Source: Daedaleopsis sinensis (Eukaryota; Basidiomycota; Agaricomycetes; Polyporales; Polyporaceae). From it: DNA of 64,000 nt. Under the pieces are notes generated by a model. That model saw nothing but the letters and a program-made list of their open reading frames with translations. It searched no databases and was not told the origin of the DNA. The position numbers and the translations under genes were made by a program. The number at the start of each line of letters is the position of its first letter. Position 1 is the stretch's first letter. The stretch spans positions 3,596,001 through 3,660,000 of the forward strand of contig CM066305.1 of the NCBI GenBank assembly GCA_033807695.1, in the 5' to 3' direction. Shown in pieces: positions 12,742 through 58,571 of this stretch.

Positions 12742-14400
12742 TTATTTATATATATACAGACAAGTGACTCATAGATTAATGTTACCTTGGCCCAGACTAT
12801 GTAGCAACCCCAGAGGCCCAGGACCCAATTACAAGGTACAATTTATAAAGGCATTATGTTGCGAATGAGCCAACAGGGAGCAATATAAAATGCAAAAGCT
12901 ATTGTAATAAGTTCCCCATGGCACATTTTTAAATGAACAAAGTGATGTAAAATGTCCCTAAGGCCATGTTTACAACACACCCCTAGTGTTGTAAACGGTC
13001 CCCCATGGCGCATTTGTAAACAGATAGAAGGTTGTAATACATCCCTGAGACCCTGTTAATAACCCACCCCTAGTGTTGTGAATGGTCCCCTGTGGCACAA
13101 TTTTAAACTGTTGGAGGGTTGTAATACATCTCTAAGACATTGTTAACAACTCACCCCCCATGTTGTAAATAAGCCTCATGGTGCATTTTTAAACAGATAG
13201 AGGGTTGTAATACATCACTGGGACCCTGTTAACAGCTACTGGAGTGTTGTAATTGGTATCTAGGGCTTGTTATCAAATCTTCGGACCTTTGATAATGATA
13301 TGATCACCTTGTTATCTCTTCAGATAACAGTTTCTTCTCTATACTGATAGCTTGGCCATCTAATCTATACTACCCCAGGATCAATACCGCACCACTGGGC
13401 GGTTATTTGACACCTTTTCCCACACCTTATTACCTCATTTAGGCAGGTAGGTGGCTGGGCTCCCCTAGTGGGGCCCACTTCCTCACCCTATACCTCCCTC
13501 ACTTCTTGATGGATTCCCTCCATTCAAGTTGTGGTATACTTGTATAATGAATGGCTACTACCCTGTACGATATGTAGATACAACCCCCTCCAATTGGTGC
13601 ACTGCACTAGGTAGAAAGGGTCGCTTTATCTGCGTATTGAATGCTAAATAGATCAGTCACCGGTGGGTGCACCATCATGTATAAGTTACCGGTGGAATAG
13701 GCTATATTGAGGCTTTCCAACGATCCCTCATACATGCAGATCTATCCATGGGAACCGTAGATATGTACCAGTACTCCTCCTACCCTACCCCCAAATTGTC
13801 TGGGGTATACCTCCACCAATTCCGGATCAATTAATGTGATCCCTTTTGCATTCAGAGGGTCTACCATACTACTCCTCATACCCATAGTGTGCCTGGCCAT
13901 GCACCCCATTGATCTGGATACAATGGGTAATCAGTGTGCAGGTTACCCTTCTGATAGTGCACCCAATACTCTACCAATTGGGGTGTGTAAGGTACCATTG
14001 GAAAGCCACAGAATACAGCTCTCTAACAATATCGTACCCATCCTCATACACTCAACAGTCATACAACACAGGGGGTGAGTTGTTAACAAGGTCCTAGAGA
14101 TGTATTACAACCTTCCATCGGTTTAAAAATGTGCCATAGGGGACCATTCACAACACAAGGGGTATGTTGTAAACACACCCTTAGGGACATTTTATATCAC
14201 TTTATTCATTTAAAAATGCGCCATGGGGGACTTATTACAATAGCTTTCGCATTTTATATTGCTCCCTGTTGGCTCATCCACAACATAATGCTTTTATAAA
14301 TTGTACCTTGTAATTAGGTCCTGGGCCTCTGAGGTTGCTACATAGGCTGGGCCAAGGTAACAATAACCTATGGACCACTGGTCCGTATATATATAAATAA
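12742..14400. mobile_element. Foldback-like TIR element, copy 1 (1659 bp)
   Basis: Ends TTATTTATATATATAC and GTATATATATAAATAA are inverted repeats, and the inverted homology runs inward for about 330 bp (GTTACCTTGGCCCAG near the left end is found inverted near the right end). The arms are built from subrepeats of about 130 bp with a TTGTAATACATC motif. A unique core of about 0.8 kb lies between. No transposase ORF was found; open frames at 13836-14097 lack recognisable domains. Same length as the copy at 27376-29034. No clear target duplication. Confidence 0.75.
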
Positions 14401-30844: not shown

Positions 30845-33335
30845 CTAACTTCTCTCTTCGCAGCTGACAGAAGTTGTGAGCTTGCACACAGGTGCTACCT
30901 TGTGTGCAGTGCATGATATGTGGTCTTTGAAAGCTTTGTTCAAAGCTGCTTTCAAACAACCCCCCAGTATGCGAGCGAGCGAGAGGTTTATAGCCTTCCA
31001 TACTGGCCTCAACATCCCAGTGCCATGTCCGAGATTGCCGTACTTGTCCTCGTCCCACTGGTGGAAGTAGCCGTCGATGTTCATGTGGCGGTGGTATTTG
31101 CTAGCATAGCGGGTGACCGGTGCAAGCTCGTTGGACCCGCTCCATAGTCTCCAGGTCGTTCGAACCCGCACCTTCCACTACGGACGGATGATTTACTGTT
31201 TGGCAGCTGTGGCTGTGTGAATACCCATGAAATGCGTTGATGATACATCAACAGGAGCGTTGCGCGAACTCCGGGCCGAGTGTGCTGTTCAGGATGGTCT
31301 CGTTGAATGTGCAGCCAATGTCGTACCCCAGTAGCAGGGCGTCCTCGAAGACTTCCAACGCTTTCGCGACAACTGCGAGCGCGTACTTCACCCTGTGACG
31401 TATACCCATCAGCTGTGAGTCGACATCAAATTCAGAAGTGCCGTGGGACTCACAGCTTGCCGCTTTGCACCATGTCAATGATCCAGAGAATGAATCCATG
31501 GCGGCACGCGGCAGCAAATATACCTGTCTCATCAAACACTCCCCACATCTTTTTCTTCTCGTCGCGTGACGCAGCCTTCCAATTCTTCGTGCACTGGCGT
31601 AGCATGTCTGGAGCGCCCGCAAAATCGGCCGGGCCGTCATTGTCGTCATCGGTGTCGTCTTCGTCTGTCCAGGCGGCCTCATCTTCGTCCTCGACCACGT
31701 TCCCAGAGTTGACGATGGTCGTGCGTGCGCGTTCGCGACTGTTCTTGACCTCGTCCTTGTACTTATCTACGTAGTCCGCGAAAAGATAGTAGTCGGTCTC
31801 GGTAAACTCTCGGAGATCGCCAACCTGGCGATCCCCGATCTTCGCGATTCGCTTCAAGGAGTTGTTACCGTCCATCGCGAACACTCGTTTATATTGCAGC
31901 GGGCCTTCATCTTCAAGCTGCGGTTGATAGCCTGAGCATTAGCACAATAATATATCCCTGAGTCGCCCTTTACTTGCCTCAAAAGTACATGCTGGACAAG
32001 CATGCTTGACACACCAGTCAGGAGTATTGCGTCCAAGGTATGCGTTGATGCGCGCGTCGACGATCCTGAGAATTTTGAGGTAGATGTCATACACATCGCT
32101 AAGGGCATTGCGGAAGTGCCGGCGGTACGGGAACTAAAACATTGGTTTTAATCGCCGATGAAAGCCGGTGTAAGCAGGCACACATACTCCGTAAATATCA
32201 CATACGACCTTCGCAAATGCCTCTACGCTGTACGAGGCCTTGCGCAGCCTGATGCGATAGAAAAGCTCAAGCGTGCAGAACGAGATGGCGAGAGTGGGTG
32301 AGATGGGAGATGTCGGTAGAAAGCCGGCATTCGCCAATGCGATGGGAGTGAGTTCGGTGGCATCGCGCTCGAAGTGATGAGAGGTGGCGAGGGATATCAG
32401 GTCTATAACTTCCATACTGATGTCGAAGCGAGTGTCTCGCCCTATGGGACGTTGCTCTGAGGTGGCTGAGGGAGTGCCGGTGGATGAACCAGCTACGTAC
32501 AGCGCAAATTGAAGGTGAGCAGGCAATCCAGGACAATATGTCATACGTAGGAGTGATGTATGAAACTCACCTTCGGGCCCTGCCGAGGGAGTAAGCGACG
32601 ATGATGCCGGGGAGACGTCTGAGGTCTCGGGAGTGTTACTGCGCTCGTCCATGTTTTGATCGCCAGCGTGGGGTTCGTCCTCGCGGGGGAGTGCCTCCCC
32701 GAGGTTCTTGGGATACCGCCACTTCAGATATGCATCTGTGAGCGGCTTGTATAGGTCCATCCAGTTGTGCGCGGCCCGTTCTATGCGCTGTCTCCATGTG
32801 CGAGTATCGCGATAGCGATAGGTACTAGCAGTAACTTGTAAGTGACATGATGCCGCCGGGCCAGGCACTCGGGTACTCACGGATGATGCATGATCTCGTG
32901 CAGAGCATGAACAAAGTCCTCCGAGTCCTCTGGCCCAGCGTCCACGTCCATCGCGTCCTTCGCTGACTGCAGATCTTGGTGGCTGATGTCGTTATCGGTG
33001 AACTCGTAACCAGGGGCCGCGGGACTGGAGGCGCGTTCGTCGCCGGCGTCATTGGCCATATCCCGGTACCGCTGTTGGGTGTGAGAGCCATAACCTAAGA
33101 ATAACGTACTTAATGTCCGTTTCCCATGAAAGCCCAGCTCTCAATGCTAATACAGACCTGTTAGTTGAGCTTGCAACCGTTGCTCGGCCTTAGCTTTCTT
33201 GCGCATGATGTCCTTGTGGCGAACGACATTGTTCTCCAGACTTGAGGTTGCCGCACGGTCGCCCTTGCGCTGGATGGTCGTGTTATTAACATAGTTCGAG
33301 ACTCCTCGAGTCTTCCTGGGAGCGCTGCGCCGCAT
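30845..33335 (-). pseudogene. KDZ family transposase 2 (CxC1-like type), truncated
   Basis: Starts MRRSAPRKTRGVSNYVNN near 33335. Exons in order: basic N-terminus; acidic MANDAGDERASSPAAPGYEF (33059); RDTRTWRQRIERAAHNWMDL and TDAYLKWRY; ISPTLAISFCTLELFYRIRL; YRRHFRNALSDVYDIYLKIL with KHACPACTFE; the core EGPLQYKRVFAMDGNNSLKR (first Asp); KMWGVFDETGIFAAACRHGF; VFEDALLLGYDIGCTFNETI (second Asp); VNHPSVVEGAGSNDLETMER (Glu). Introns: GTGAGT...CGTAG near 32570-32490, GTATGT...TTTTAG near 32187-32134, and one with a GCAAGT donor near 31977. A frame change near 31120 precedes LAPVTRYASKYHRHMNIDGY and the C-terminus after YGNLG is lost. It belongs to a KDZ subgroup different from genes 1 and 3. Not functional. 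Confidence 0.85.
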
Positions 33336-41087: not shown

Positions 41088-42734
41088 CTAGAAACGAGTC
41101 TGAGACTGGAAATCGTCGTCCTGGTCATCAAGATCGCTGAGATCGAAGAGATTGTTGTCGTTGTCGACCTCCATGACTGCTGGGGCCGGCACCGCAGTGG
41201 GGTTGACATTGCCGCTGGGTGCAGCTCCTGAGCCAGATGGTCCAGCGACTGGGGCGTTTTGGACGTCGGGCTCGACACCGTTTTGAGCTATACAGCAGTC
41301 CTCGAGTTGGCTGACCAAGTCCCGAATGAACGTGACTGGTGAGCACTCACCGGGTGCTGCCTGAATCTCATTCTGACCACCCATACCAGCCTTCTTGTGC
41401 TGCTGGTCTTGTGGGTGCCGTCCTTGTCCCCCACGCCTACCTCTGCGGCGGGGTCCGTCGTCTCCCGACCCCGAAGCAGGATGTGCATGCTCCCTGAGGT
41501 GGTCGGCGAGGGGCGGCATCCGGCCGTCGCAACCACGGTTATGACCTGTTCTGCGGTAGGGACGGGGGCCACGGCCGCGTGCGTGCGAGTCCTTCGATCG
41601 ATGATGCCATCCACGAGGAGCCGGGCCCATCGGCCTGGCGGAAGCCGCATTTTGGATGAGGGTAGTGATCTGAGAGTTGATCGCTGAGTTATGGGAAAGC
41701 AGGGAGTTGAACGTGTCTGCCGTCATCGTCACTCCGGGGATGTTGCCACCCGACGGAAGTGACGGACGTGTTGCAGCCGCGACAAGCTCTGGATATTTGT
41801 AAGGGCATGGGGCATACTTTTGCGACACCTTGAAGATCTCGATATATCCGGCCGGAGGATCGCCCGGGTACCCTGCACGCTTGTCGAGCCACACTCGAAA
41901 GTGGTTAGCGTAGGCCTCCCACCGGACGCAGTCGTCCACGTTGTAGTGGCCTGGAACTGCCAACATGCTGAGTGACGGCAGATGCAGCTGAGCGAGTGAG
42001 AGGTGGAGGGAACGAGCGATAAGGTCGATGTCCTGCTCGTACGTGAGCCTTATAGTCTCTTTACAAAGGTCCTGAAGTTTATTTTTGCAGGAACCAGACT
42101 GACTCATGCTGTCCTGGTGGCTCAAACTAGTGTGCTGCCCGGGTATGGTCACCGCCGCCACCGATAACACTGGTGTCCCAGCTCTGGGTGTGAGTTCTAC
42201 CTCGGGATCGCCGGTGGTCCAGCCAACTTCAAACAACGTGTCTTTCCCCTGTCCGGCATGCGAGACAATCCTATCAACGGCCCATTCTCGTGGACGTTCT
42301 CTGAAACCGGGCAGTTGATGGAACTGTCGGCCTGGAAATCGACAATTGTCGTTAGGGTAATGTGGCCGCAAAAGCAATGCATGGAACGTGTTCGCAATGC
42401 CCCGAGCGCGAAGCTCTTCAGGTAAGTCTAGCCTGTATGTGGCGCCTCTACTAACTTCTCTGGTAATAGCAAACGGCCCAAGGAACTTCGGAGCCAGCTT
42501 ACGGGCACGGCCCTTCGGCAACGAAAGATTCTTTGTAGACAAGTAGACAAGATCTCCGATCACGAACGACGCAGGACGGCAATGCTTATTGGCCTGCACT
42601 ACCTGAGAGGTATGTGCTGCTATGATTGCGTCATGCGCCGCCATAATCACAGCCTTCATTTGCGCAGCGAATCGCTCAACACCCACTAGCTGTGGTAGGA
42701 ATAATGTATCATATACAGGTAGATTGTGTAGCAC
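41088..42734 (-). pseudogene. pol: Ty3/Gypsy Pol C-terminus: integrase end plus long extension
   Basis: Open for 548 codons. The N-terminal part (LVGVERFAAQMKAVIMAAHD, FVIGDLVYLSTKNLSLPKGR, ARKLAPKFLGPFAI, HALLLRPHYPNDNCRFPGRQ, PREWAVDRIVSHAGQGKDTL, FEVGWTTGD) is the C-terminal integrase/GPY-F region and a chromo-like end of agaricomycete Gypsy Pol. The catalytic integrase core, RNase H and reverse transcriptase are missing, truncated near 42734. After the chromo-like part the same frame continues about 320 residues: DSMSQSGSCKNKLQDLCKET, HYNVDDCVRWEAYANHFRVW, an Arg/Gly-rich stretch and an Asp-rich tail (NNLFDLSDLDDQDDDF). Known elements usually stop shortly after the chromo region. The tail may be a fused Gag-like or host-derived piece. 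Confidence 0.8.
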
Positions 42735-43396
42735 CTATTACAACAAATACAGGCAGTGCTCCTGATGTATTACACTCTTATGCCTATATGGGGCGGGGTC
42801 CGGGAGGGGGCTCTGGCGACCGCTCGGCACAGCGGCTGCCTTCCTAACTAGGTCAGTGTGCACGCGTGCACCTGGGCTTTGGGCGGCTACCGTTGGAAAA
42901 GGGTAGAGCGGGTGTCTGGCCTGCCAAATGCGGACGATGCAGAGCGGCCGGGTGCTACTGTGCCTAAATTGGGCCAGTACGCCTGCGCCCTGGGCAGCTA
43001 CCCTTAGGAAAGAGTAGAGCGGGCGTCTGGCCTGCCAAATGCGGTCGATGCAGAGTGGTAGAGGTTGGGTGGGTGTCTGGGCTGCTAAAGGTGTCGCACA
43101 TGAGCACCAGGTTCACCAAAGGCGTCTAAACTACCAAATTGGAGTGCAGCTTGACACACACTAGCTCGTAGCAACTGATTGTCCATTATGCATAGCAGAA
43201 TAGTAGCATACATCAAGCACATGTAGTCTATCCTGCGCGCAGTGCAACAGTAGTGAAGCAAAGAGAGCTGAAAGAGGGACTGCCGGCGCAGGGGGGAGCA
43301 TAGGACGAAAGGACAGAAGGAAAGACCATGGTGACAAACGAGTTGACGAGCCTGACAACGTCGTATACACCCGATGAACATTCTGGCTGAGGTACC
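42735..43396. repeat. Tandem repeat block (about 111-bp unit) and flanking non-coding DNA
   Basis: GTCTGGCCTGCCAAATGCGG occurs at 42914 and 43025 within units of about 111 bp (GGGCGGCTACC...GGGTAGAGCGGG). A third weaker copy begins near 43070. No gene was recognised. Confidence 0.55.
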
Positions 43397-45824
43397 TTAC
43401 CGACGGCGAGGCTTCTTTGCAGCACGCGATGCAGTCTTCCCAACAGTGATGTTGTCACTGTCCTCGTCGTCGATTGATCGTTTACTAAATATGCACATTA
43501 GACACAAATCTAACATATGCGCTTGGTGACTCACCGAGACTCCTCGCTCATTGACGGCAATTGAGTAGCCATCGCCGAGATAACCCACGCTACGTCTGCT
43601 ATAGCAGCTACCCACTGCGCCTCGGTCTGCGTCGTCACAACACCCTTCCACCAACCGAGCGAGAGCAGGACAATCAGCAGACCGTTCTGGCCCGGCTTCC
43701 TCAGCTGCTCCCAATCTCCTTGTCCACCGATCACCAGCGTACCATTGCTATCCAGCTCACGCCAGGGAGGCTGTAAGCCTGTCCACCATTTCCACCACGA
43801 CGTCGCATACTTCACCTCGTCCGCGATTTTTGGCACCTTCGCTAGGTCGCGCCGAAGGCTACGGATCCAGAAGAAGATCTCTTCAGGTCGGTCCTGTGAA
43901 GATAGGCCCTGGGTCTGAAGACATCATCAAGTCAGCATGTGCTCACGTCTAATTATAGGAACATCAACGTACTGAGGTTTTCCACCTGTACGAATGTTCA
44001 AGCACAGTCCACCACTCTAGCGCATGGTTGAACATGGCACCTAAGTTCTTGCCCTCGAGAAAATTGAACGGCCTGCGCAGCCAGGCTGGCCATCCCTCGT
44101 CGTTGACGATGATCGAAGGAAGTCCCCATTCTGGTGGTGGCGCGGTAAAAGTACACCACGCACGAGCAGGGGCAGCGAGCGGAGTGAACGCAGCAGGGGC
44201 AGCAGGGGCAGCAGGAGTACCGAGCGCAGCGGGGCAGGCGGGCGTGGTGGGCGCAGCGGGTGAAGCAGGCGCGGCGGGTGCGGTGGGCGCGGTGGGCATG
44301 GCGGGCATGGCGGGTGAAGCAGGTGTGGCGGACGTGGCAGGCACCACGGGTGAAGCGGACGTGGCGGACGCAGCGGATGTGGCGGGGGCAGCGAGCGGAG
44401 CAGGGGCAGCGGACGTGGCGGGGGCGGTCGAGGGGGGAGTTTGTGACACTTGGACAGTGAGGGCTGGAGACTCGGACGACGTACCACCGGCCTGTGACTC
44501 CTGTCCCTCTTGATGCTGTCTCCCCTCCCTCTCCCTCTCGGCCTTCTCCTTGAGAAGGATTTCCGTGAGCATCATGCCGCGCGCAAATGATAACATGCGC
44601 CCTATCCAGTACAGGCGGACATCACACTCTTCCTGCGTCAGACTGTTCAGATACTCAGTTGACACGACACTCAGGCCGAGATCATTGATGGCTGGGATCG
44701 TAGAGCCTTCCGGGACCTTTTCCCAGACCTTCGGGGCTGTCGACAGCGTTGTGGAGGGCGTGATGGAGGGCTCGGACCGCGCAGTCGACAGCTTGGACCG
44801 CGCAGATGATTGCTCGGGTGATTGTTGGCGGGAGTTGTCGGAAGAGTTGTCGGAAGAGTCGTCAGAAGAGTCTGACAACCATTCGTCGTCGTCAGTCTCC
44901 TCGTTGTCTCGGGCGACTGCCTTGCCCTTGCGTCTGGACTTTCGGGTGGCGGGAGTGGCTTTGGCCTTACCCTTGTTCTTGGACGGCATGACAGTCTTGT
45001 TTTTCGACTTGCGAGTCATAGCAGACTCTTTGTTGCTGCGGCCACTGTCCTTGCGCGCCACGGACTGTGCGGCGGCACGCGGCGTGTCATCCTCTTGAGC
45101 GGATGGAGTGCTGGTGCCCCGGATCGTGGCTTGACGCTCTTCGTACTCTATCGAGTCAACACAGAGCTGTTAGTAAATGTAGGCAAGCAAGTGATAGGAG
45201 CAAGACTGACCTGCAGTCATCGTGAGGTACCAAGTGAAAGAGGCCATGACATCCGTCCGGAATGGTTCCTTCTCGACGAGATGCCAGGGAAGAGGTGTTG
45301 GACCGACACTTCTTCCAGCGGTGATCCTGTAATATGTCCATGGATGTTAGATAGTGCTCGCCTGTCAAAACTAGAGATAGTAGTAATGACTCACACTTTG
45401 AGCTGGAACTCCCGTTGTCCGTCCTTCAATGGAACCCCAGCGAACAACGTCAAGTGAAACCCGGTCTGCTTCCTGAGTCCCTCAAGCAGAGGCTGCACGA
45501 TCTCGGCCATATTGTCACGGCATCTAAGCTCACTTAGCTCTGACAAGTGCGACTCAGACAACAAGAGACTACATACCTCTGTTGAATGTCGGGCGGGTCC
45601 GTGGTGTTCGTTCGCTCAGCTTCCTCCTCCGCGGCTGCGAGGTCCGCGAGATGAAGCTCCTCCGCCTCCGCCTCCAGCACCGCACGGTACTCTTCAGTCT
45701 CGTTCTTGAGCATCTCGCACGCGATTTTGGACCGGAAGGAGAGGCGATACTTGCTGTCCATGCCGGCTTCGGCCCAGCGCATGGCAAACTCCGCATCGAT
45801 TTCAGGGCCCTTCTTGGTCATGTA

Positions 45825-47477
45825 CAGTGACGCTCAAAAAGATTACACGTGCCATTGGCACGCGCAACTTTTTGTCAAAACGCGTCTCGTTCTCATGAAC
45901 GGCTGAACATTCTACCATGAAATATTTTGTATGTGTAGTATAGTACGTTTTCTACAATCACTCTAAATTATAAGACAAACGGACGTGTCGATGCAGAGGC
46001 ATCATCCAATGATGTCACCGTCTATCTGTTTGGCCTTGTTTGGCACCCATCATGTGTGATACTGTGGTGGCTCTTGACGTCTGTCGTTTTCTCTACGCAC
46101 ACTTCTATCCTGCAAAAACACAACTATTCATTTTGCCTATCTCTCTTACATCCTTTCCAAACAATGGTTTGGCTTACTCCCACTAAAAAAGCTCGCATCT
46201 ATGAGCTTTACAATCTCGGCTTCAAAGCCCCGACCATTGCCCAACAGATCGGGTGTGACCCTGCCACAGTGCGCCGTAACTATGCCAAACTGCGCAAAAA
46301 CCCCAACTTCTATCACAAACCCACCATTCCCGGCCGCCCACGCCTTCTCGACGAACGGGACCTCCGCCATGCTGCACATCTGATCACGACCGGTGAGGCC
46401 CGTGATGGTGCTCATGTCAGGAAGCTTTTGTTTCCTGACGTCAGCCCAGCCACTGTGCGCCGAAACCTCTGCGAGATTGGCTTCCATGGACACATACGAC
46501 GGAAGAAACCGTTTCTCAAGAGGCAGCATATCCTGGAGCGGAAGAAGTGGGTGGACGCACATGCAGATTGGACGGTCGAGGATTGGAAGCAGGTGGTCTT
46601 CTCAGATGAGTCTAAATTTAATCTATTTGGCTCAGATGGGAGATCATGGTGTCGGAGGAGGGTGGGGGAGGCACTGGAGCCGAGGAACGTGGACAAGCGG
46701 GTCAAGCATGGGGGTGGTAGTGTGATGGTCTGGGGTTGTCTCACATGGGATGGGCCTGGGCGGCTTTATCGCGTTGAAGGACACTTGACGGCTATCCAAT
46801 ATTGCAAAATATTGGAAGAAGCCTTCCTAGGGTCCCTTTCCGACAGGAACTATGATGTTTCCAACATCATTTTCCAACAGGATAATGACCCGAAGCATAA
46901 AGCCGCCCGTTCCCAGGCTTGGTTCGCCGAGCACAACATCCATCAACTCAATTGGGCGCCATCCTCTCCCGACATGAACATTATTGAACATGCGTGGGAT
47001 CATCTTGATCGCAAAATACGCGCTCGCAACCCTTTGCCGACGAACCGTGAGCAGCTTTGGGCCGCATTAGTCGAGGAGTGGGAGAACATTGACATGGATT
47101 TTGTACACACTTTGTATGACTCAATGCCTCGTCGTGTAGCTGCCCTCCAGAAAGCTAAGGGCATGTACACTAAGTATTAAATGTAATACGACTGGATCTC
47201 TTCATAATCCCCCCTCAACATGCACTGAGACAAGCCAGACATGTTGTGCGCTCTGGGCGCTAAATAAGGTGGACAATGTGTTTTGGTATAGATTCAATTA
47301 TATTCTCACACTCAGAGCTTCATTCACGCTGTAATCTAACACAAGAGTATACTGTATACTATGCTACCTATACAGAAAGTTTCATGGCGGAATGTTCAGC
47401 CATTCATGAGAACAAGACGTGTTTTGACAAAAAGTTGCACGCGCCAATGGCACGTGCAATCTTTTTGAGCGTCACTG
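45825..47477 (+). mobile_element. Complete Tc1/mariner element (1653 bp)
   Basis: Inverted ends start CAGTGACGCTCAAAAAGATT and stay similar for about 130 bp. TA dinucleotides flank both ends (45823-45824, 47478-47479), the standard Tc1/mariner target duplication. One intact transposase ORF lies inside. The ends differ mainly at C/T or G/A positions. This is the only autonomous-looking element in the window. Confidence 0.92.
46164..47180 (+). CDS. Tc1/mariner transposase (DD34E), apparently intact
   Basis: Start at 46164 (MVWLTPTKKARIYELYNLGF) gives 338 residues, the usual Tc1 size; the upstream in-frame extension to 46056 lies in the non-coding leader. Residues about 5-60 form the first helix-turn-helix (APTIAQQIGCDPATVRRN), followed by a GRPRLL hook and a second DNA-binding region (VSPATVRRNLCEIGF). 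The catalytic triad is complete: Asp in FSDESKFNLFGSDG, Asp in FQQDNDPKHKA, and Glu in SPDMNIIEHAWDHL, with 34 residues between the second Asp and the Glu. GGGSVMVWGCL is present. The enzyme cuts the element out and inserts it at TA. No stop or frameshift. No intron. It could be active. Confidence 0.92.
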   Translation: MVWLTPTKKARIYELYNLGFKAPTIAQQIGCDPATVRRNYAKLRKNPNFYHKPTIPGRPRLLDERDLRHAAHLITTGEARDGAHVRKLLFPDVSPATVRRNLCEIGFHGHIRRKKPFLKRQHILERKKWVDAHADWTVEDWKQVVFSDESKFNLFGSDGRSWCRRRVGEALEPRNVDKRVKHGGGSVMVWGCLTWDGPGRLYRVEGHLTAIQYCKILEEAFLGSLSDRNYDVSNIIFQQDNDPKHKAARSQAWFAEHNIHQLNWAPSSPDMNIIEHAWDHLDRKIRARNPLPTNREQLWAALVEEWENIDMDFVHTLYDSMPRRVAALQKAKGMYTKY

Positions 47478-48414
47478 TACATTTGCCAGTCAGCCAGCTG
47501 TCGAGGAGACGAAGACGGATTCGCTGCTTCAGCGAGCGGTTCGAGGTGTGCTGCGTACGGATTGCTTGTCTTCTTCAGGTTGATCTGGCGTAGACATTGC
47601 ATGTGCGACATAATACACTGGGAGAAGATGGTTAGTAAGACAATGGTGTAATAGTATGTGCACATACCTTCTGAGTAAGCTCGATGATATCTCCCTTCTG
47701 CTCGAGGACCTCTTCGAGATCTTTGTCCGGTGGGTCCTCGATGTAGTCGGATGGTTCCTTGTCGAGCGGGACGTACCACGGGAACAACTTCCAGAAGCTG
47801 GCGAAGAGCGCGATCTTGAAGTTCTTCTTAGTGATGCTGAGCGTACTGCGCCGATGCAGGGCAATGAAGGCAGGGAGTTGGCTGAGGAGGAACGCTTCCC
47901 GCTGGCCATGGAAGTGTCCGGGACTCCCCGGCTTCGTGCCCGAGGTGTCCTCTCCCTTCTTCCTGGAGCGACACTTCTTCGCGGCTTTAGATGGTCCATT
48001 GCGAGCTATGGGCTCGACTTGGATAAATTCTATGTTGTGGCTGGGAGCGGTAGTGGACATGGAGGGCACAGAGTGGACTTAGGGAGGGAGCTGAGGTAGG
48101 CGTGACGGTGATGTGAGTTGAGTTGGTGTGCAAGCCAAGACAAGCACATTAAGAGAGTCGGAACTCACCAGAAATCATAACAGATCCGTTGCCCAGGTAC
48201 TGGCTCTAGTGTGGATTGAGGGTGAATGCGTACAAGACGTGTCATGTACGCGTTCGTGACAACCCGGCGGTGTGACACATGTGACGCAACGCGTGATTTA
48301 CCGACGTAGATCGCATGATTATGGCCACATCTCTCTTCTCCCCTGCATCCTCCCTTCCACTGTCAACCTCTCTCATCTCAGCTCTCTTTCAACGTTCAAG
48401 CCAGTCCACTCACA

Positions 48415-49178
48415 ATGCCCGCTACTCCGGCCGAGATCCTGCGAGACTGGGACGCCACTGCGGCCTCCCTAGGCGAAATGCCGAAGTACGACGCGTATGG
48501 CACGATCATACCCGTCGGCAAAAAGGAGGGCCGCAAAATTTATGTTGTCTGGAGCGGAAGACAACTTGGGCTTTTCTATAACTGATATGTCAAATTTACC
48601 ACATCACTGCAATATCTTGCAGTCTGATCGCCCCGATCAATTCATACAGGGGCCTTGCCAACACCATGGTCTGCGGGTTCAGCTGCTCGAGCTACAAAGG
48701 TTACCGCACTCTTGCTGAAGCACGCATGGGCTAGGAGGACGGCCTGCCAGGCAGAGAGGGATGATGGAGGCCGCCGGGTCCATGCCAGGCCATACCGACC
48801 CCTCAGGCTGACCTCGACACTTCAGAGGCGGAGTCGGTGGCGTCCAGCAACCACGAATCAGGTGGATACGTCCCCCTGGTTCCTGCTGACCCCGCTCGCA
48901 TCTCGATCCCAGCCGGCCTGGTGCCCCCGGCGCTGGATGACAGTGGCAGCGACAACAAGACAGAGCTTGACAGCCCACCTCCTCCCCCCTCTCGTACTCT
49001 TTCGCCCGCAATGTCTGCGTTCTCGGTCGGATATCTACATGCCTTCCCTCCTCTCACCGATGGGACAATTACACCTCGGACCGCCTTCACACCGCATCTT
49101 CTCAACTCCGAGCTTGCGCCCGCTGATGCCTACACCGCCCAGCTGCGCTCGGCCACCACACAAGTTGCGGGCGCCTGA
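48415..49178 (+). pseudogene. RNase H1 N-terminal-like protein 2
   Basis: Starts MPATPAEILRDWDATAASLG at 48415. The fold signature follows: KIYVVWSGRQLGLFYN, an intron of about 40-80 bp, then NTMVCGFSCSSYKGYRTLAE. After EARMG an in-frame TAG (48734 region) stands where related proteins have Trp. The sequence continues as a Ser/Pro/Asp-rich C-terminus (VASSNHESGGYVPLVPADPA, SAFSVGYLHAFPPL) to a TGA at 49178. The small RNase H1 N-terminal domain binds RNA:DNA hybrids. Head-to-head with family A copy 2 (about 345 bp between starts), the same arrangement as at 8.4-10.7 kb. The stop makes it a probable pseudogene. Confidence 0.55.
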
Positions 49179-49394
49179 GCTATTGTCGGTATTTAGGGTA
49201 ACCCCATCTGGACATATCTGGGTGAATGTTGAAATCTGGGAGGCAAAGATGGAAATTTGAGGGCAAAAATGGCCTTTAAAAATGTATCAGATTGCGACAG
49301 ATGGGCCTAAAATTGCCATAGATGGATGTCAGATGGGCAAAAGACGGCAAATAGATACTTAGTCATCCAGATTGGGGTACAGCAATTTCTGACA

Positions 49395-50041
49395 ATGTCT
49401 CAGTCTCAGGTACTTATCTTGACGATCTGATCGTACTGGTGCCCGAGGATTGTATTTATCATTTTTAGATCCCTCCACGCGCCTCGGGATCCGGGACCTA
49501 CCGTCCTGTTCCAGAGCCTTCGGCTGAATCGGAATCTGACCGGGAGTTCTTTGTGGTCATTCGTGGTGACCATCCGGGCATCTACATGGACCGGTAACGC
49601 TCTGATTATTTAGTTACTGTACTATTACTCACGTGTATTATTGAACAGGGTAACTGCACTAATCCACCTTGGGTGGAATCCAGGGTTGAAGCTGGTCGTC
49701 TTTGACTCCCTCAGCCGTGCCGCGCTGTACTTCGCATATCAGTACATGGCTGGGAAGGTAGGCATCCCTCAATTGGTTGTAGCAGAGTAAACCAGGCGAT
49801 GTAGCCCGGAATTATGTTGCTGTTTGAATATCATGCTTTTTGTCTGCTCTCTCTCTCCTAGATCGCGAGCATACAACCTGTTGCCATCTCATATTGTGAG
49901 CTTGTACAGTGCAAGCCTAGCCTCGACCGCAGACATGAAGTACATCACTCGGTATATGACCCCGGACAGCTCATCCCACATCTCGCCTATACCCTCGTAC
50001 GACAGCTGGTTCAAATAGTCCTCGTCGCGGAAGAGCCGTGA
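49395..50041 (+). CDS. RNase H1 N-terminal-like protein 3
   Basis: Tiny first exon MSQSQ at 49395 (GTACTT donor), exon 2 IPPRASGSGTYRPVPEPSAE with REFFVVIRGDHPGIYMDR, intron 49594-49648 region, exon 3 VTALIHLGWNPGLKLVVFDS with LSRAALYFAYQYMAGK, then an intron (GTAGGC...CTCCTAG near 49759-49860) and exon 4 IASIQPVAISYCELVQCKPS to VQIVLVAEEP, stop at 50041. The 'FFVV.RG..PGIY..R.....' and '..LVVFDSL..A' blocks fit the RNase H1 N-terminal fold. No inactivating change is seen. Its 3' end overlaps antisense the coding end of the gene at 49889-50729; one of the two ends may be wrong. Confidence 0.5.
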
Positions 50042-50729
50042 GATATGCTCCAAGATCCTATCCCCATCCCGTAGCCAATGCTCCTTGTCCACAAACCATT
50101 TTGTGCGTTGCAGTGGATCTCCCTCGCGATGCAGGTCATGCCACTCACGATTGATTCGGTCCTCGATGCTCGGCCAATCCTCTGAATACCCCCACGCGCT
50201 CAACTTGTCGCTCAGACCTTCAATACATCCTGTGTATCCCCAGTATGGCACCGGTTCAACGGCAAGAAGGTGTTCTTGAGTCCTGTCCAGCAACGAGTTA
50301 TGTTAGTAGTAGTCAATGAGTCATAGAATGTGACGAACCTGCGCATTACTAGTGCGTGCGTGCGTGCTGAGGCCATAATCAACCCCAACGACGCTGGGGT
50401 GGGTACTTTCGGAGCAATTGGGGAGAGTGGTCAGCTGTGATAGTATGAATGTCTAGTACACTAATAGCTACCTGGCGGGGATGACCTCGAGTTGGTGCCG
50501 CTGTTACCCCTCAAATCCGAGTGGACAGAGGAGTCCCCATTGGGATGGGATACCCTAGTCTTGAGGGAAACAGGTCTGTGGATGAGTTAGCGCAAACATT
50601 CCGCAGGACCCAGCAGATCATCACTCACTTATGTTTCTTGCGCTGGTAGTAACGTGCGTTGCGGGCTTGCCGCAACAATTTCCCTCGTAGGACCTTGTCG
50701 TCTTCTATGACACTTGCTATGGAAGACAT
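49889..50729 (-). CDS. Small hypothetical protein
   Basis: Starts MSSIASVIEDDKVLRGKLLR at 50729, with a basic helix (QARNARYYQRKKH), an intron (GTGAGT near 50632), KPVSLKTRVSHPNGDSSVHS, another intron, a short exon, and a final exon TQEHLLAVEPVPYWGYTGCI, then GLSDKLSAWGYSEDWPSIED and SYEGIGEMWDELSGVIYRVM, ending ALYKLTI at 49889. No stop is inside the proposed exons. I do not recognise the family. It sits between RNase H1-N-like gene 3 and the TET/JBP gene, tail to tail with the former, and could be part of the same mobile block. Confidence 0.5.
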
Positions 50730-51302
50730 AGCACACCGTTCACCTGACAAGACGAGCGCCGTGAAGAAGCAGTAGACGAGTAGTAGCCGGTGTGAGTGGA
50801 CCTGGGAGAGAAGCAGGCACGGTGACCGCTCGAGGCAAAGGAGGACGTGCGAGGCGCTTGCGGGGCCTCGCAGGCGTCTCAGCGCTCAGCACCCAGGCGT
50901 CTTATGCCGTCTTACTGCGTCTTACTGTCTTAAAGTGAACAAGGACCGTTTTGGGTTCTATTCCACTCAATGTGGCCTGAAAAAGACCTCAAAGGTCATG
51001 GAATGACATAACGTACACACTGGGATTGTTGTGTACGGACATAGTCAAGAAGTAGTGTACTAGTACACATCCACTACTCGAAGCTCGGTGAGTCAGCGCT
51101 CAGACCCGTACGCAGACAACATGTAGTACGACCAGTAGTTGTAGTATCCTAGCTTCTCTTCCACCAGATCACACAGTAGAGAATGTCTCCATCACGCTTG
51201 ATAGCTCACGAGGTACTTATTCGATATCCAATGTTCTCCTATTTGAGTAGCACTCGTACTCGTACAATGCAAACAAGAAATACAACTGCATATCGCGCAT
51301 AA
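50730..51302. other. Intergenic region, nothing recognised
   Basis: About 570 bp holding the promoter of the small hypothetical gene and the 3' side of the TET/JBP gene. No repeat or ORF of note. Confidence 0.5.
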
Positions 51303-53415
51303 CTATCCGGACGTGGCCTTCTCGCGCAGACACTCCTTCAGGTCCTCCCAGCGGCTGAACATGGCCAAACCCTTCTCCCAGTGCTCCCTACCAGTGTATT
51401 TCATGCTGTTCCCTGCGGCGAGGAAGGACTTCTGCGACTGGAAGTCGCAGTCTGCCCATCGGAAGAGTCCACCGGCAGAGTACTGCAAGAAGGCGTAGTG
51501 GCGCTCTTCCAGGTGAGCGAGTGCAGTGTTGGAGTGTCATAGGATTGCTGAGGGAATGAGGATGGTGGAACCCGGGGGGAACTCGATAATCAAGCCAAGG
51601 TCCCAGAGTATGAGATGACCCCCAAGCCGAGGGTCATAATCACCGACCGCGGTGATGGCACAAAGGCCGTACACCAAGTTCAAATGGTCTGTATGTACAT
51701 ATGCGATGGCGTGCGGGCCGAGATTGATCGATATGGCGGCGAAACCATTGTCATCGAAGTTGTGCTTGAGAGTCTTGTCCCGGAAGCACAGGCTGGTGAG
51801 CGTCCCATGATAGTACGCGGACAGGTTGGGGAAGAAGATGCCCATGGATGCTGAACGACAGGAGAGGGATGTGGGACTGATCTCTATGGTAGACGAACAG
51901 TATGGACTCACTGTCAGCGTAGTTGGCCACACGACGAATGGCTTTGAGCGTGAGCACGATTCGCCATAACTCTTGGTTGTGGCGTGAGAGTGCGAAGTTA
52001 CCAACACGCTGCAGACTTGTGAGTAAGGGCGGTAGTCAAAGGATAGAAATGACTAACCTTCTGTCCACCTCCATACGAGATCCCACATGAGATCGTCTCG
52101 AAGTTGCCGCGACGGTTCGGCTTGCGGGCGCGAGCAAAGCAGTACGAGGACGCGAGGATCCGGAATATCATCCCCAGCTCCTCGTTGACGGCCTCGTATG
52201 AGGGGTTGTTTGGTTGTCCGCACAGGAGGGTAATCACCTTGTCATCGGTGTCCAGCACCGGGCGGCATACTCTGCAAGAGGAGTGAACATGTTAGACACA
52301 GAATCACGACGTGGATGAGGATTAATGCACTCACTTCCCGTCCCATTTGACGTACTGAAACCCCGGTAGACTGCATGCCTCATCACGGGTTATGGGCCTT
52401 CGGTCCTGCGCACTCTGCTGATAGAGGCGCGCGACGTAGGCACTCGCGGTGAGAGGTAGGTTGTCCCTGCTCAGGCTGAGGTCTGTCTGGATAGGAGCCG
52501 ACGAGCTCGCCTCGGACGCGAGCACCTGATTGTCGCGCGCAAGGACGTGATCGAGATTGGCATCAGCGATCAACGTGACCGCAAACTGGATCTGGCGCAA
52601 CACCGCGCCCTTCAGTGACCTGCCCTTCCCATCAGGGTACAGGAGGGCCTCCTTGGGCTGCTGAGCACTGCGGCGCTCGCGACGATGGGCTTTGGAGCGG
52701 TGATTGGCACGTTGTTTCTTCGTACGAGCGGTAGCGGCCGCGTCCAGGGAAGCCGAACGCGCGGATGGGTTATCAGCGGGGCGCTCGCAGGTGTCATTCG
52801 GAATGGGGGCTAAAGGAGAGAGGGAAGTTCGCAGGCTACGCGGCGCCACACCCGTGCCGGTATTCAGGTTGAGGTTAAGCCCGGAACGCGCGAAGCCGTT
52901 GAACAGAGACTGGATCCTGTTGGGATGCACAGGACCGTCATCGTCGGGAGGCAGTGTCGCGCTCGCTAGAACTGGTTCGTCTGAATCTTCGGGGTGAACG
53001 GGTGGATGGTCGGACACAGCGTCAGTGGTTGGGGGAGCTGATTGGTCGGCGAAGGAAGTGTCGGCGTGCGCGGCCTTCGCAGCGTCTAGCGCCGTCTTGA
53101 GTGCCTTCTCGAGGGAGAAATCGACAGGGACGTGAAGGGGGGTGCCAATGTTGTGGGTCCATGGGGAAAAGGCCTGACCCGAGCGGGTCTGGGAGATAAC
53201 AGGAGTTGGATGATGACTGCACCAAGAAGCCGATAACGTGCTTACCTTGCGGAAGGGGGAGAGGACTTGTGGCGCGTGGAGACCTGCAATATCGCGCGTG
53301 TTAGTCGATGTTGAGCGTTTATGCGTCGTGTCGCGCGTCGAGTGCCATCAGTGTCACATATGGCGCTGGCACACGACGGGACTGCGATATAGGGCTACGT
53401 ACCTCGGACAGGCAT
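51303..53415 (-). pseudogene. TET/JBP-family 2OG-Fe(II) dioxygenase with one nonsense codon
   Basis: Start at 53415: exon 1 MPVR (13 nt), exon 2 GLHAPQVLSPFRK (53283-53246), exon 3 from 53188 (TRSGQAFSPWTHNIGTPLHV ... YVKWDGK), exon 4 VCRPVLDTDDKVITLLCGQP to ISYGGGQK, exon 5 VGNFALSRHNQEL, exon 6 the oxygenase core. Core motifs: AYVHTDHLNLVYGLCAITAV (Fe-binding His-x-Asp), GDYDPRLGGHLILWDLGLII, EFPPGSTILIPSAIL, then TGA (51537-51539), then HSNTALAHLEERHYAFLQYS (distal Fe His and 2OG-binding Arg) and AGGLFRWADCDF. This order matches agaricomycete TET/JBP oxygenases, which oxidise methylated bases. Length about 590 residues, normal. The stop removes the distal His, so no active enzyme unless read through. 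Divergent from KDZ gene 3, 272 bp apart. Confidence 0.75.
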
Positions 53416-53687
53416 TGATAGCAAGCGGGAACTGTGTTGAGTAGAGAGACAAAGAGAGAAGAAAACAAGCGGAGGTGGCCAGAAGAATACGGTTTGGGCG
53501 TGATTTATATACGTGACTAACACGTGATGTCACTAAATGCGACCTGTCACACAGCACTGGTGCCCATGACCGCAGCGCCTCGTGTTTTCCTGCCTCTCAC
53601 ACACCCGTTACTAGCACCCTCCCAGCTCGCACACTCGCTCACCCTTCATCCTCCCAGAATCACTCACCCTCTATCTACCCCACCAAT
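53416..53687. promoter_or_regulatory. Shared divergent promoter of TET/JBP and KDZ gene 3
   Basis: 272 bp separate the two ATG codons. A TATA-like GATTTATATACGTG lies near 53501-53515 and CACGTGA follows it. Pyrimidine-rich tracts precede the KDZ start (CACACTCGCTCACCCTTCAT). One control region could drive both genes. Confidence 0.45.
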
Positions 53688-56416
53688 ATGTCTCAGCGCC
53701 CAGCAAAGCGAGCTCACAAAACTCGCCAAAACGATGACCTCTCTGCAGACTTCGAGGTGACTGCCGCTGCCGCCCACGCCGCAAGACGCAATACACGGGA
53801 CTTTACGGTCAACAATGTCTCGGAAGACAGACGGCGCATCCACCGCACAGAAATTTTACTCCCCACCCCCTCTGACACTCCTTCAACATCTCAACCTGCC
53901 GGTACCTCGGTGAATCCACCGGCAGCGTCCGGATCGGGGGCCTTCCAGCTCGAGGGGGAGGACTGGGACCCAGCCCTGATCGACTGGGGCTTGGATGATG
54001 CGGATGGTGCGCCCGTGCCCCCAGGAGAAGGAGCTACTGCTGGAGGCCCGGAGGCAGCTCGTCGGTACATGAGCTCGGTATGTGCACCCATCCTGATCAA
54101 GCTAGTACGTGCTAATCTGTCTTTGCTGCTCATAGGATGAGCCGATGAAGTTGTTCATACCGGAACGTGATATGTACTTGGACGAGATGATCCGTCGAGA
54201 CGGGTGGGGCCTCGCGATGCATGAACGGTGCATGTCATGCCCAGATCAGGCGACACCAATGAAGGCTACCATTCGGTGCACGACATGCGCCCCCGGACCG
54301 CTTCTCTGCGAACGATGTGCCGTCGCCGCGCACAAGGCGAATCCTTACCACAGGGTCAAGGTGAGACACATTATATCTCATATATTGGTATAATCTCTAA
54401 CTGAGCTCCAGAGGTGGACTGGACGTACATTCGAGGTCACGACACTTAAAGCCCTCGGCCTTCACATCCAACTAGGTCATCACCATGACACGAGCCGTTG
54501 CTCTAATCCCATCCCATCCCGCGACGACTTTTGCGCCATTCACATCGACGGTCGCCATCTCATCGCGCTCGACTTCTGTGGTTGCGATCACACCGCGCGC
54601 TCTGGGACCGTCATGCAGCAGCTGTTCAGGTACGACCTATGGCCGGCGACCAACTGCGATCCGAACACCGCGTTCACGTTCAGCCTGCTCAAACACTACC
54701 ATCTACAGAGTATCCAGGGCAAGGTCACGATGGGCGGCTACTATCAAGCTCTAGAATGCATGACAGACAACACGGGCACTCAGAAGATCGCAGACCGTTA
54801 CAAAGCATTCATGCGTGTTGTAGCGCAGTGGCGGCACCTCAAGCGACTGAAGCGCAACGGCTGAGGGCACGACCCGACCGGTGTTCTTGGGACCCAGCCC
54901 GGGGAGCTTGCAGTCGACTGTCCGGCATGTCCACACCCGGGGATCAACCTCCCAGACAATTGGGACACAGTCTCCGACAATCTCAAGTGCGTCTTTCTGT
55001 TCGTTCCTATATTTATTCTCCTGGCACTAACATAGTTTCGTACCATTTGTTAGATATATGTACATGGTCACCGTCGTAATCGACGCATGCTTCCGTCTAA
55101 AGCGACGAGCCGTCTCAGACGAACAGAAGTACCTAATCCTAGGAAGTGGATGGGGATACTTCGTTGAGGACACCGCCTACCATGAGGTCTTGCAAGCGTA
55201 TGGGGAGCAGAAGGAGGTATGTGTCGTCTTTTCTGGATGTATTAAAGGCTTGAATTGACATTGCGCACAGCTGTCCACTTGCACAGGTTTATCGGCCGTA
55301 GATCACGCAAATACCAAGTTTTCCCGAGGGTACGCCACGACCGGTGTGGGCGGAATGATGTGCACGCGCCACAAGTTCTGGCTAGCGCTCGGACTAGGCG
55401 ACATTCAGAAGGGCGAAAAGTGAGTCGTTCCCATCTATACCTCTGTAAAGTTCATTACTGAGGGGTCAAATAGATACATTAATATGGACTACATCTTTGT
55501 ATGTGCGATACGGCGATACCTCATTCTGAACAAGATCGTCAGTTACGACATTGCATGCCAGTGGTCCTTGGGCCTCCTCGAACGCATTGCGCAATTCCCT
55601 GAGCACCTACGCATCGAAATTCCCGAAGGATCAATAGCGTACGTCATCCCCAAGCTGCATTTCCATGCACACAAGCGTGAGGGACACTCGCCATATTCTC
55701 TCAACTATCGCGTCAGCGCGGCCTGCACGGATGGGGAGGGGATCGAGCGTGGATGGTGGTGGATCCAGCCCGTCGCCAATGCGACGAAGCAGATGGGACC
55801 CGGCCAACGACAAGGTGTTCTTGAGGACCAGTTCGGGTACTCGAACTGGAGGAAGACTGTTCATATGCGTAAGTTACGCACATTTGGTCTTTTCTAGATC
55901 GTGGCTGACGTGATGCCCCGGTTGTCAGCGTGGACCTTGCGCGACCGGTTGCGTAAGGCATGCGACGCCCACCGCGAGCAGCTGGAGGAGTTCGAAGACC
56001 TCACCAACTCACTGCGGAACACGCAGAACCTGATCTTATGGGAAACTCAGGTGGCTTTATGGGAAGCCGACCCGTTCAACCAAGATGACCCATATGTGAC
56101 CACGCTGCAGGGTGAGTCACATCTTGATGCTACCATGGCTGCTGACTTACATGGACTATCTCAGCACCTACACAGACCGAGACGATGCGTGACCTTGCAG
56201 ACGAGGAGCAACGAGCTAGCGCGGTGCCCGGCTTCGTTGCACTTCACGAAGTCAGCGTGGTCGGGTTCATCTCTATGGGACTAGAACTCGAGCAGATCAA
56301 GTAAGTGACACACTGATGAGCTACGTAATACGAACATACCACTAATATTACTACAAAGGACACGAATACAGCAGGACGCTAAGAAGGTGACCACAAGCAA
56401 GGTCGTCCACCTGTAG
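53688..56416 (+). pseudogene. KDZ family transposase 3 with CxC2 cluster, single nonsense codon
   Basis: Nine exons with clean GT/AG introns: 53688-54077, 54136-54360, 54412-54986, 55054-55216, 55271-55419, 55474-55868, 55929-56111, 56165-56300, 56359-56416. Basic N-terminus MSQRPAKRAHKTRQNDDLSA; CxC2 cluster CMSCPDQATPMKATIRCTTC and LCERCAVAAHK; a second cysteine part CDHTARSG; KCPACPxPG-like DCPACPHPGINLPDNW; core VTVVIDACFRLKRR (first Asp), IVSYDIACQWSLGL (second Asp), TDGEGIERGWWWI (Glu). C-terminal coiled region to VVHL, stop 56414-56416. About 757 residues. The only defect is TGA at 54862-54864 where KDZ gene 1 has Arg (GRAHDPAG), compatible with CGA to TGA. The stop codon lies within the first bases of the adjacent foldback element. 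Confidence 0.9.
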
Positions 56417-58068
56417 TCACCACTTCTCTATTAAATAACACAGACACAGGTCTGTGTGCTGCCAGCTGGTGTTGTGAAGGCTGTCTGGGGCATTTGAATA
56501 CAATTGGGGTCCTGGACCATTGGATATACTACAGAGTGCTGGACAGATATTATATATTCAAGAGTCTAGGACCATCATTAAAACCGATGTTTTAAGCTGT
56601 AATTGATGTCCTGCACAACATTTTCAAAGGTATAGACTGTGTAATAACTGCCCTGGACCATATTTTCAAAAGTGTAATCACTGCCCTGGACAACATTTTC
56701 GATAGTGTAGACTGCGTAATCACTGTCCAGGACCTTATTCTAAAAGGTGTGTACTGCGTAATCACTGTCCAGGACCTTATTCTAAAAGGTCTCTGCGCTG
56801 CGTAATCACTGCCCTGGACGACATTTTCAATAGTGCAGACTGCGTAATGACTGCCTAGGACGACATTTTCAAAGGTGTAGACTGCGTAATGACTGCCTAG
56901 GACACTTTAATAAATGTTCAAGCACTTGATCAGAACTGATATTGATTAGATTGCTTGCTATCTCTTTAGATAACAGCTTCTTATCTTTACTGATTGCTTG
57001 ACCATCTAATCTACTGCCCTAAGATCAATAACACGCCATCAGGCGCTTATTCAGCGCCTTTTCCCGTGCCTTATTACCTTAATTAGGCAGGTAGATGGCT
57101 AGGCTACCCTAGGGGGGCCACTTCCTCACCCTATACCTCCCTCATTTCTGCATGGATTTCCTTCATTCAAGTTGTGGTATACTTGTATAGTAAATGGCTA
57201 CTACTGTGTACAGTGTGTGGGTACAACCCCCTCTATTCAGTGCACTGCAATAGGTAGGAATGTTCGCTTTATTTGGGTATTGAATGCTGAATAGCTCAGT
57301 AACCGGTTGGTGCATCATCATGTACAAGGTACCGTTGGAAAGGGCTATAATGTGGCTTTCCAACGAGCCCTTGTACATGAGAATCTGTCTACGGGAACCC
57401 TGGATATGCATTGGTGCTCCTCCTCACTACCTCCAATATTGTGTGGGGTATACCTCCGTCAATTCCTGATCAATCAATGTGATCCTTTTTGCCTTCAGTG
57501 TGCCCAGTATACTACCCCTCAGCCCAGTAGTGTGCCTGGAAATGCACTCCATTGATCCGGATACAATGGGTAATTAGTGTGCAGGTTACCCCCCTGATAG
57601 TACACCCAATACTCCACCGATTAGGGTGTGTAAGACACCGTTGGAAGGCCATCATCGATAGCTTTCCAATGGCGCCCTACTCATTCCCATACACCCAGCG
57701 GTTATAGAGAGTGATTACGCAGTACACACCTTTTAGAATAAGGTCCTGGACAGTGATTACGCAGTCTACACTATCGAAAATATGGTCCAGGGCAGTGATT
57801 ACACTTTTGAAAATATGGTCCAGGGCAGTTATTACACAGTCTATACCTTTGAGACTGTTGTGCAGGACATCAATTACAGCTTAAAACATCGATTTTAATG
57901 ATGGTCCTAGACTCTTGAATATATAATATCTGTCCAGCACTCTGTAGTATATCCAATGGTCCAGGACCCCAATTGTATTCAAATGCCCCAGACAGCCTTC
58001 ACAACACCAGCTGGCAGCACACAGACCTGTGTCTGTGTTATTTAATAGAGAAGTGGTGACTACAGGTG
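56408..58068. mobile_element. Foldback-like TIR element, copy 3 (1661 bp, divergent)
   Basis: Ends CACCTGTAGTCACCACTTCT and its inverse at 58049-58068 start an inverted repeat of several hundred bp. The arms are made of about 60-bp subrepeats (TGCGTAATCACTGTCCAGGA and inverse), unlike copies 1 and 2, but the core (about 56960-57650) is clearly the same as 13290-13990, with words such as TTCAAGTTGTGGTATACTTG and TTAGGCAGGTAG in the same order. No transposase. No target duplication could be defined. It lies between the KDZ 3 stop and a Plavaka fragment. Confidence 0.75.
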
Positions 58069-58069
58069 C

Positions 58070-58571
58070 ATGCTTCCCGGATGTCTTTGTACGAGCGAAA
58101 GGTCAACTCCGTGCAGTTCGGAGCGGTCCCATAGATGAACCCGAGAAGATTGTTGATTTGTTTTTTCGTCAATCCCACATCGAAGGTGAAGTATGCGAAG
58201 TCAAAGTCGGAGCGCGTACGGAAGGGCACCCACAGATTGGAAGGGATGGGGATGGGCTCAGGATGAGGGAGTTTCCCAGTGTTGGAGGCAGAGAAGGAAG
58301 GCTCTGGATGATACATACTTTGCCCTTCGGGTTGCGGCGGTAGCCCGAGGCAGCTTCGCTGTTGAACAGTTCACTACTATGGGCAAAAGGACAATGTTGA
58401 CTAGGGGTGTCACAGAATGAGGTTAGATAAACACAAACCTGGGTGCTGTGCCCTTGGAGTCGCGACACGTGCAGTACAGACAAAGTCATGTTCGACTTGA
58501 CCTCCCGAGTTGAGCAGCTCTCCACAAGCTCCACAGGTGGGAGCCTTGTTGCAGGAATGTCTCGTCGCCAT
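58070..58571 (-). pseudogene. Plavaka-type transposase N-terminal fragment
   Basis: Starts MATRHSCNKAPTCGACGELL at 58571, a small Cys/His motif (C-x2-C, then EHDFVC), an intron near 58440-58403, and then MYHPEPSFSASNTGKLPHPE and NLWVPFRTRSDFDFAYFTFD with VGLTKKQINNLLGFIYG and LTFRSYKDIREA. The 'PF..R.DF..A.......L....IN.LL' pattern is the start of Plavaka (CACTA-related) transposases of mushrooms. The frame runs into the end of the foldback element at 58068, so the catalytic domain is missing. Dead fragment. Confidence 0.6.

Follow-up and report, generated by a model that had tools for sequence, protein, structure and literature searches.

A truncated KDZ transposon copy with a predicted TET/JBP-fold dioxygenase gene, and its sister copies, in Daedaleopsis sinensis

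The linkage of TET genes with KDZ transposases reportedly goes back to Iyer 2014. Here we describe such a pair in Daedaleopsis sinensis, within a 64,000-nucleotide stretch of contig CM066305.1 (GenBank assembly GCA_033807695.1, positions 3,596,001 to 3,660,000, forward strand; hereafter the window), where gene T, encoding a predicted TET/JBP-fold 2-oxoglutarate- and Fe(II)-dependent (2OG-Fe(II)) dioxygenase, lies head to head with a KDZ transposase gene inside a truncated transposon copy. In a literature search for which most subscription journals were outside reach, Kojima 2025 (PMC12730594) was the sole title on TET-bearing transposons among the matches listed. The accessible part of that paper reports complete TET-positive transposons in fungi, including Kyakuja elements in Polyporales, describes two Laccaria Kyakuja families with 7-bp duplications, 5'-CA..TG-3' ends and no terminal inverted repeats (TIRs), and puts forward an escape from silencing. 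In the part accessible, the Marasmius oreades genome paper reports characterising TIR motifs of KDZ/Plavaka elements, so that TIRs by themselves are no novelty for KDZ elements.

Like the TET-positive Kyakuja of Agaricomycotina as that text presents them, the element described here combines a KDZ transposase and a TET/JBP dioxygenase in one unit. It shares with Laccaria Kyakuja the CA..TG termini and 7-bp target duplications, the latter found in four of the six sister copies in which both ends were located; the window copy retains one end only. Unlike the Laccaria families, the present elements have TIRs of 365-536 bp that are 95-99% alike. The head-to-head pair and two further genes, A and B, are features of the elements here, published Kyakuja having been compared by text, gene order aside. 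Judged by its motifs, T falls outside both the AG and the PE definitions in the accessible part of Kojima 2025 (PMC12730594), the two types with which it was compared. Whereas Kyakuja TETs of the AG type have Gly or Ser, and Asp, at two pocket positions, T has Asn and Cys, each in 59 of 59 relatives. PE-type TET/JBP-like proteins (Agaricales, Pezizomycetes) resemble T in being very divergent and in lying in fungal transposons, but have HxE where 58 of the 59 T relatives have HxD and one has HxN.

The window copy is truncated and dead. It occupies positions 42684 to 56414, in three blocks that match the 13,458-bp sister element C4a at 97.2%, 96.3% and 92.6% identity. The initial annotation had proposed a large KDZ element carrying both genes between 51303 and 56416; ends, target duplications and sister copies bore out such an element, but with the limits given here. 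We consider it probable, at about 0.72, that this is a dead, right-truncated copy of a KDZ transposon of ~13.6 kb and that in live copies T oxidises 5-methylcytosine (5mC) in the element's own DNA. CpG methylation would silence these KDZ elements and T would counter it, while the transposase would move the element and broken copies would become methylated and decay at CpG.

Gene T (51303-53415, minus strand) was resolved by splicing into six exons (53415-53403, 53283-53246, 53188-52335, 52271-52058, 52008-51912 and 51850-51303) bearing the core motifs first noticed, namely HTD, GGHLILWD, HSN and an Arg further downstream. An in-frame TGA stands directly before HSN, which holds the distal His, so that any translated product of the window gene would end short of both the Arg and the distal iron ligand. 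The KDZ transposase gene (53688-56414, plus strand) comprises nine spliced segments from 53688, in agreement with the nine exons first proposed, and also has one in-frame TGA, giving the single nonsense codon per gene that had been noted. Against Pfam its protein matched both KDZ (PF18758, 2e-51) and the CxC cluster family CxC2 (PF18803, 1.5e-34). The two start codons, at 53415 and 53688, are 272 bp apart and head to head as annotated, and the stretch between them (53416-53687) possibly acts as a shared divergent promoter. The view that the KDZ gene is nearly complete did not hold. Homology to the sister copy stops at 56414, at about codon 755 of ~1,075, with the last third lost, and the apparent KDZ 'stop' falls within a foreign palindromic TIR element (56408-58068, 369-nt arms, 98%) where both gene and transposon break off. 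Nothing elsewhere in the window matched the last 1.5 kb of C4a, which comprises the end of KDZ and the right TIR, save for the match of that TIR to the left end. With the right end and the 3' part of the KDZ gene lost, the window copy cannot be autonomous. Its left end reads CACTAGCTGTGGTAG and is preceded by CAACACC (42677-42683), which may be the left half of a 7-bp target duplication, its right half having been lost. The left TIR (42684-43089, plus strand) aligns in inverse orientation with the TIR on the KDZ side of C4a, at 95.3% over 402 bp.

Ten genome loci of 20 kb each, some extended, were compared. A conserved element with the T/KDZ pair in its middle was delimited at both ends in C4a (13,458 bp), C4c (13,633), C11 (14,131), C12 (13,649), C1 (13,716) and C2 (13,812); for C4b and C5a the far end, and for C5b one end, could not be located, and these were not counted as two-ended. 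Exact target duplications flank C4c (CTCGGCC), C11 (TGCACAT), C12 (ACTCCCG) and C1 (GTGCCGT). The TIR pair of one element is near-identical, while TIRs of different elements are ~66-82% alike or do not match, except among the close sisters (the window copy, C4a and C4b). One C11 TIR (L021, 3465-3899) holds a 40-bp unit repeated ~11 times, possibly a transposase-binding array; no repeat of this type was found in the window TIR. T is without stop or frameshift in five of nine aligned elements (C4a, C4c, C11, C2, C5b), with the N-terminal part of C5b unreliable because its alignment calls for implausible introns; the start codon and its short exon were resolved only in the window copy and C4a. 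C12 and C1 had one frameshift each and C5a one stop plus four frameshifts, all of these in poorly aligned terminal stretches. KDZ is without stop in seven of nine (C4a, C4c, C11, C12, C1, C2, C5b). A single KDZ frameshift near residue 950, present in C4a, C4c, C12, C2, C5a and C5b but not in C11 and C1 (six of the eight full-length rows), coincides with an exon junction in the reference, which was joined by hand, and was read as an artefact. Copies with both genes open therefore exist, and the genome search for the same pair, for element ends and for intact copies that had been proposed for this locus found all three.

With respect to selection, the ratio of nonsynonymous to synonymous differences (pN/pS) was 0.21-0.39 for T and 0.07-0.23 for KDZ (residues 210-640) in eight of nine pairs, in which synonymous sites are near saturation, and 0.43 and 0.34, respectively, between the near-twins formed by the window copy and C4a. 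In 13 head-to-head loci the T and KDZ distances were correlated with r 0.92, a value reached in 0 of 9999 permutations, and with r 0.84 when the two most divergent were left out; this set excludes the near-twins C4b and C5a, together with six loci at which the closest KDZ either shares the strand of T or belongs to another lineage. T and KDZ are thus both under constraint and have diversified together within one mobile unit.

To place the pair in the genome, the KDZ matches listed, out of 175, were condensed by hand to 113 places and 92 matched T stretches to 28 loci, with short or N-terminal-only fragments at C4:3355450, C5:2384095, C8:4143337 and C12:2535938 dropped. At least 21 of the 28 T loci lay within 8 kb of a KDZ match, compared with ~3.5% of the genome by position, so that the pairing, examined within this genome, is more frequent than chance would give. 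KDZ within 8 kb lay on the opposite strand, on the 5' side of T, at 16 or more loci and upstream on the same strand at five or more. The near-KDZ loci include C5:2364924, whose KDZ neighbour belongs to the adjoining element C5a, and the opposite-strand ones include C5:261618, whose KDZ falls outside the head-to-head clade. Were T an ordinary host dioxygenase gene that stands beside KDZ transposons by chance, the seven loci with no KDZ within 8 kb among the matches listed would be accounted for. This explanation is nevertheless scarcely credible. It is contradicted by the exact duplications of the target that flank complete copies and place T inside four mobile elements, and it is further opposed by the recurrent opposite-strand arrangement and by the co-divergence of T with the transposase.

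The same genome holds 22 TET/JBP genes detected by the Pfam profile, a set distinct from T. Like T they are KDZ-linked (at least 21 of the 22 within 8 kb of a KDZ match among those listed), but unlike T they have the nearest listed KDZ downstream on the same strand in all 22 cases, one of them 25 kb away. In a tree of 42 KDZ pieces, which had several long branches and other joins that were unsure, the 12 sampled partners of Pfam-type TETs formed one group (97/99), and 15 head-to-head KDZ fell in another with one further row (96/96). At C4:4264857, C2:670138 and C6:3055664, T lies downstream of a KDZ gene that belongs to neither clade, and the three T copies form a group of their own (99/97), suggesting that T was captured a second time. 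At the first of these (L032, 4437-4772 and 8364-8870, within C4:4256500-4266499), the T copy follows a KDZ of neither clade with the same spacing as at C2:670138/674236.

The kinship of T with TET/JBP dioxygenases, as claimed in the initial annotation, was supported by profile-profile comparison and by predicted structure, although not by a Pfam Tet_JBP match. In the model, TET enzymes were the top structural neighbours by a wide margin, and T by prediction has the TET/JBP fold. The HxD...H iron triad and the Arg, set in a double-stranded beta-helix, were kept in 58-59 of 59 T relatives, and HxD in 19 of 20 T loci of this genome with the motif. In sequence, T is only 10-15% identical to solved TETs and CMD1, with 11% to CcTET of Coprinopsis cinerea (PDB 7vpn, 7w5p, 8jkk) and 12-15% to human TET2 and Naegleria NgTET1, from which T also differs as a fungal transposon gene. 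We found 341 T relatives; the nearest named among those listed were Polyporus and Trametes proteins. Sequence searches of PDB with T returned no TET, only weak, low-complexity or chance matches, and a search of NCBIfam gave nothing useful. A genome search with Pfam PF20515 had no match and was uninformative, because the controls also gave nothing. One Trametes sanguinea gene model (P0120) combines a piece of Plavaka transposase (PF18759, 6.8e-9) with a domain like that of T; either the annotation is a fusion or a Plavaka element carries a T gene there.

For the substrate pocket we used correspondences from the accessible part of the CcTET paper (PMC11040006), where CcTET Gly331 equals TET2 Asn1387, NgTET1 Asp234 and CMD1 Asp350, residues that bind N4 of 5mC and clash with N6-methyladenine (6mA), where CcTET Asp337 equals TET2 Thr1393, NgTET1 Ser238 and CMD1 Thr354, and where TET2 Tyr1902 stands in place of the stacking Phe. 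Matched by offset from the HxD His, and not by residue-level structural alignment, T has Asn in place of Gly331 and Cys in place of Asp337 (Thr1393 and Ser238 in TET2 and NgTET1) in all 59 relatives. Both residues are also present in all 20 own-genome T loci that keep the segment (near-twins counted; a 21st is without it), and the sixth residue after the Arg is Tyr or Phe in every one of the 59 relatives. Because Asn occupies the TET2 Asn1387 site, T is predicted to select 5mC over 6mA, as human TET2 does, a prediction drawn from one residue; with Asn for Gly331 and Cys for Asp337, the bifunctional 5mC/6mA pocket of CcTET is not predicted for T. The Pfam-type TETs differ in this respect. The one locus read (L031) has a Gly/Asp pocket like CcTET, which it matches at 2e-20, and among relatives of this type the first site was Gly in 13, Ser in 1 and Ala in 1 and the second Asp in 13 and Glu in 2 (15 of 16 with the motif).

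An unlikely but by no means negligible alternative keeps the element as described and lets T act elsewhere, on 6mA, thymine, RNA or protein, or with a CMD1-like product, or in transposition or target choice. The low identity to solved TETs and CMD1 would suit such a role, as would the Ala, Ser, Pro or Thr that T carries at the position we take to be that of TET2 His1904. The invariant Cys is also found, at the Asp337/Thr1393/Ser238/Thr354 site, in no TET named in the accessible part of the CcTET paper (PMC11040006). Against this stand the wide margin by which TET enzymes lead the predicted structural neighbours, the pocket Asn (offset +5) and stacking aromatic as in TET2, and the reported blocking of 6mA by that Asn (PMC11040006).

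Oxidation of the element's own 5mC was further considered in the light of mutation patterns. The window copy and C4a differ at 340 sites. C-to-T changes on the window side numbered 178 at CpG and 33 elsewhere, compared with 30 and 36 on the C4a side (Fisher p 2e-9); the window-side rate per site was ~13-fold higher at CpG, with ~9% of CpG cytosines changed and the changes spread over the whole element. C5a, with a stop in KDZ, showed 30 CpG and 9 other changes compared with 4 and 3 in its near-twin C12, and C4a and C4b had 4 versus 2 changes at CpG. Observed/expected CpG was 0.91 in the window copy, 1.00-1.10 in eight other elements and 0.78 in window bases 1-42000. Five matches to cytosine DNA methylase exons were found in the genome. 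Taken with these exons, the footprint in two broken copies is consistent with self-demethylation by live ones. A mutator resembling repeat-induced point mutation (RIP), in place of ordinary CpG methylation, would leave the pattern silent on counter-methylation, and the decay seen in both of the broken copies open to comparison would fit such a mutator. In basidiomycetes, RIP-like signatures favour TpCpG. No such preference was present (TCG 37/483, ACG 36/420, CCG 34/442, GCG 71/612), and this, the moderate rate and the spread over the element make a RIP-like origin rather improbable.

Several points weigh against self-demethylation by a TET-fold enzyme. The spliced window T protein matched no Pfam family at E 1e-3, Tet_JBP included, and only 19 of 59 T relatives reached Tet_JBP at E<=1, the best at 9.5e-7. 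The unbroken sister T exon scored E 0.097 and 12.3 bits, below the gathering score of 34.9 bits; we read this failure as a detection limit of the profile and not as a trait of the family. The folded model is that of relative P0002 rather than of the window T protein. Of the two-ended copies, C4a and C2 have no matching target duplication, and some of the seven T loci with no listed KDZ nearby are fragments. The CpG versus non-CpG contrast between C12 and C5a was not significant (p 0.36), the CpG ratios of the other eight elements could come from youth and not from protection, and any methylated transposon would show such decay, the comparison covering T-bearing copies only. The interpretation also assigns no role to genes A and B.

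Gene A (approximate limits 43534-48174, minus strand) is a conserved multi-exon gene, delimited by open reading frame (ORF) conservation across elements and tblastn mapping. In the window it has one stop within the matched stretches and is split by a 1.6-kb nested insertion (45827-47470), absent from C4a, with short inverted ends like CAGTGACGCTCAAAAAGATTAC; judged by eye, this is possibly a Tc1/mariner-type element. No Pfam family was found at 0.01 in four gene A relatives. A role as HMG-box protein, suggested by what Iyer 2014 reportedly describes and by a three-helix block at residues ~139-211 of the gene A model, is no more than a possibility, with a mean pLDDT (predicted local distance difference test score) of 41 and a best PDB match of E 0.55. 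A second insertion of ~0.2 kb (49184-49394) is likewise absent from C4a. Gene B (49892-50731, minus strand) is a small conserved gene adjoining T, with a conserved exon at 49892-50302 and, by eye, an upstream exon near 50731. Two Trametes T gene models, P0008 (E 3e-15) and P0006 (E 5e-13), match it in their C-terminal part. Each of them is T followed by gene B in one protein, so that this order of the two genes also occurs in a genome other than the present one. The end sequence of the palindromic element at 56408-58068 recurs at five other genome places (C4:2223998/2234871, C1:845712/849141 and C8:2725960), and its centre is repeated in the window at 13290-14008 and 27768-28486 (82-84%). The window also holds two more minus-strand KDZ fragments (5516-5887 and 31134-31893) and a minus-strand ORF at 58038-58370, which presumably resembles the N-terminus of Plavaka-type transposases.

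In a broader sense, the genome contains complete, still-open copies of a transposon that seems to carry its own DNA demethylase, and the prediction of 5mC selectivity for T versus 5mC/6mA activity for the CcTET-like enzymes sets apart two kinds of TET cargo within one genome. With only 2 of 120 listed T relatives (341 found) carrying a precomputed Tet_JBP domain, the results also suggest that a large family of mushroom proteins with the TET fold goes undetected by the Pfam profile. We propose tentatively, at rather less than even odds, that T represents a transposon-borne TET class with a TET2-like Asn plus Cys pocket (compared with the AG and PE types only), fixed head to head with its own long-TIR KDZ lineage, probably in many mushrooms, that a second, CcTET-like lineage (5mC plus 6mA) travels on another KDZ clade, and that T was taken up at least once more beside KDZ genes of neither clade. 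If this is true, the two TET cargo types may answer two different silencing marks.

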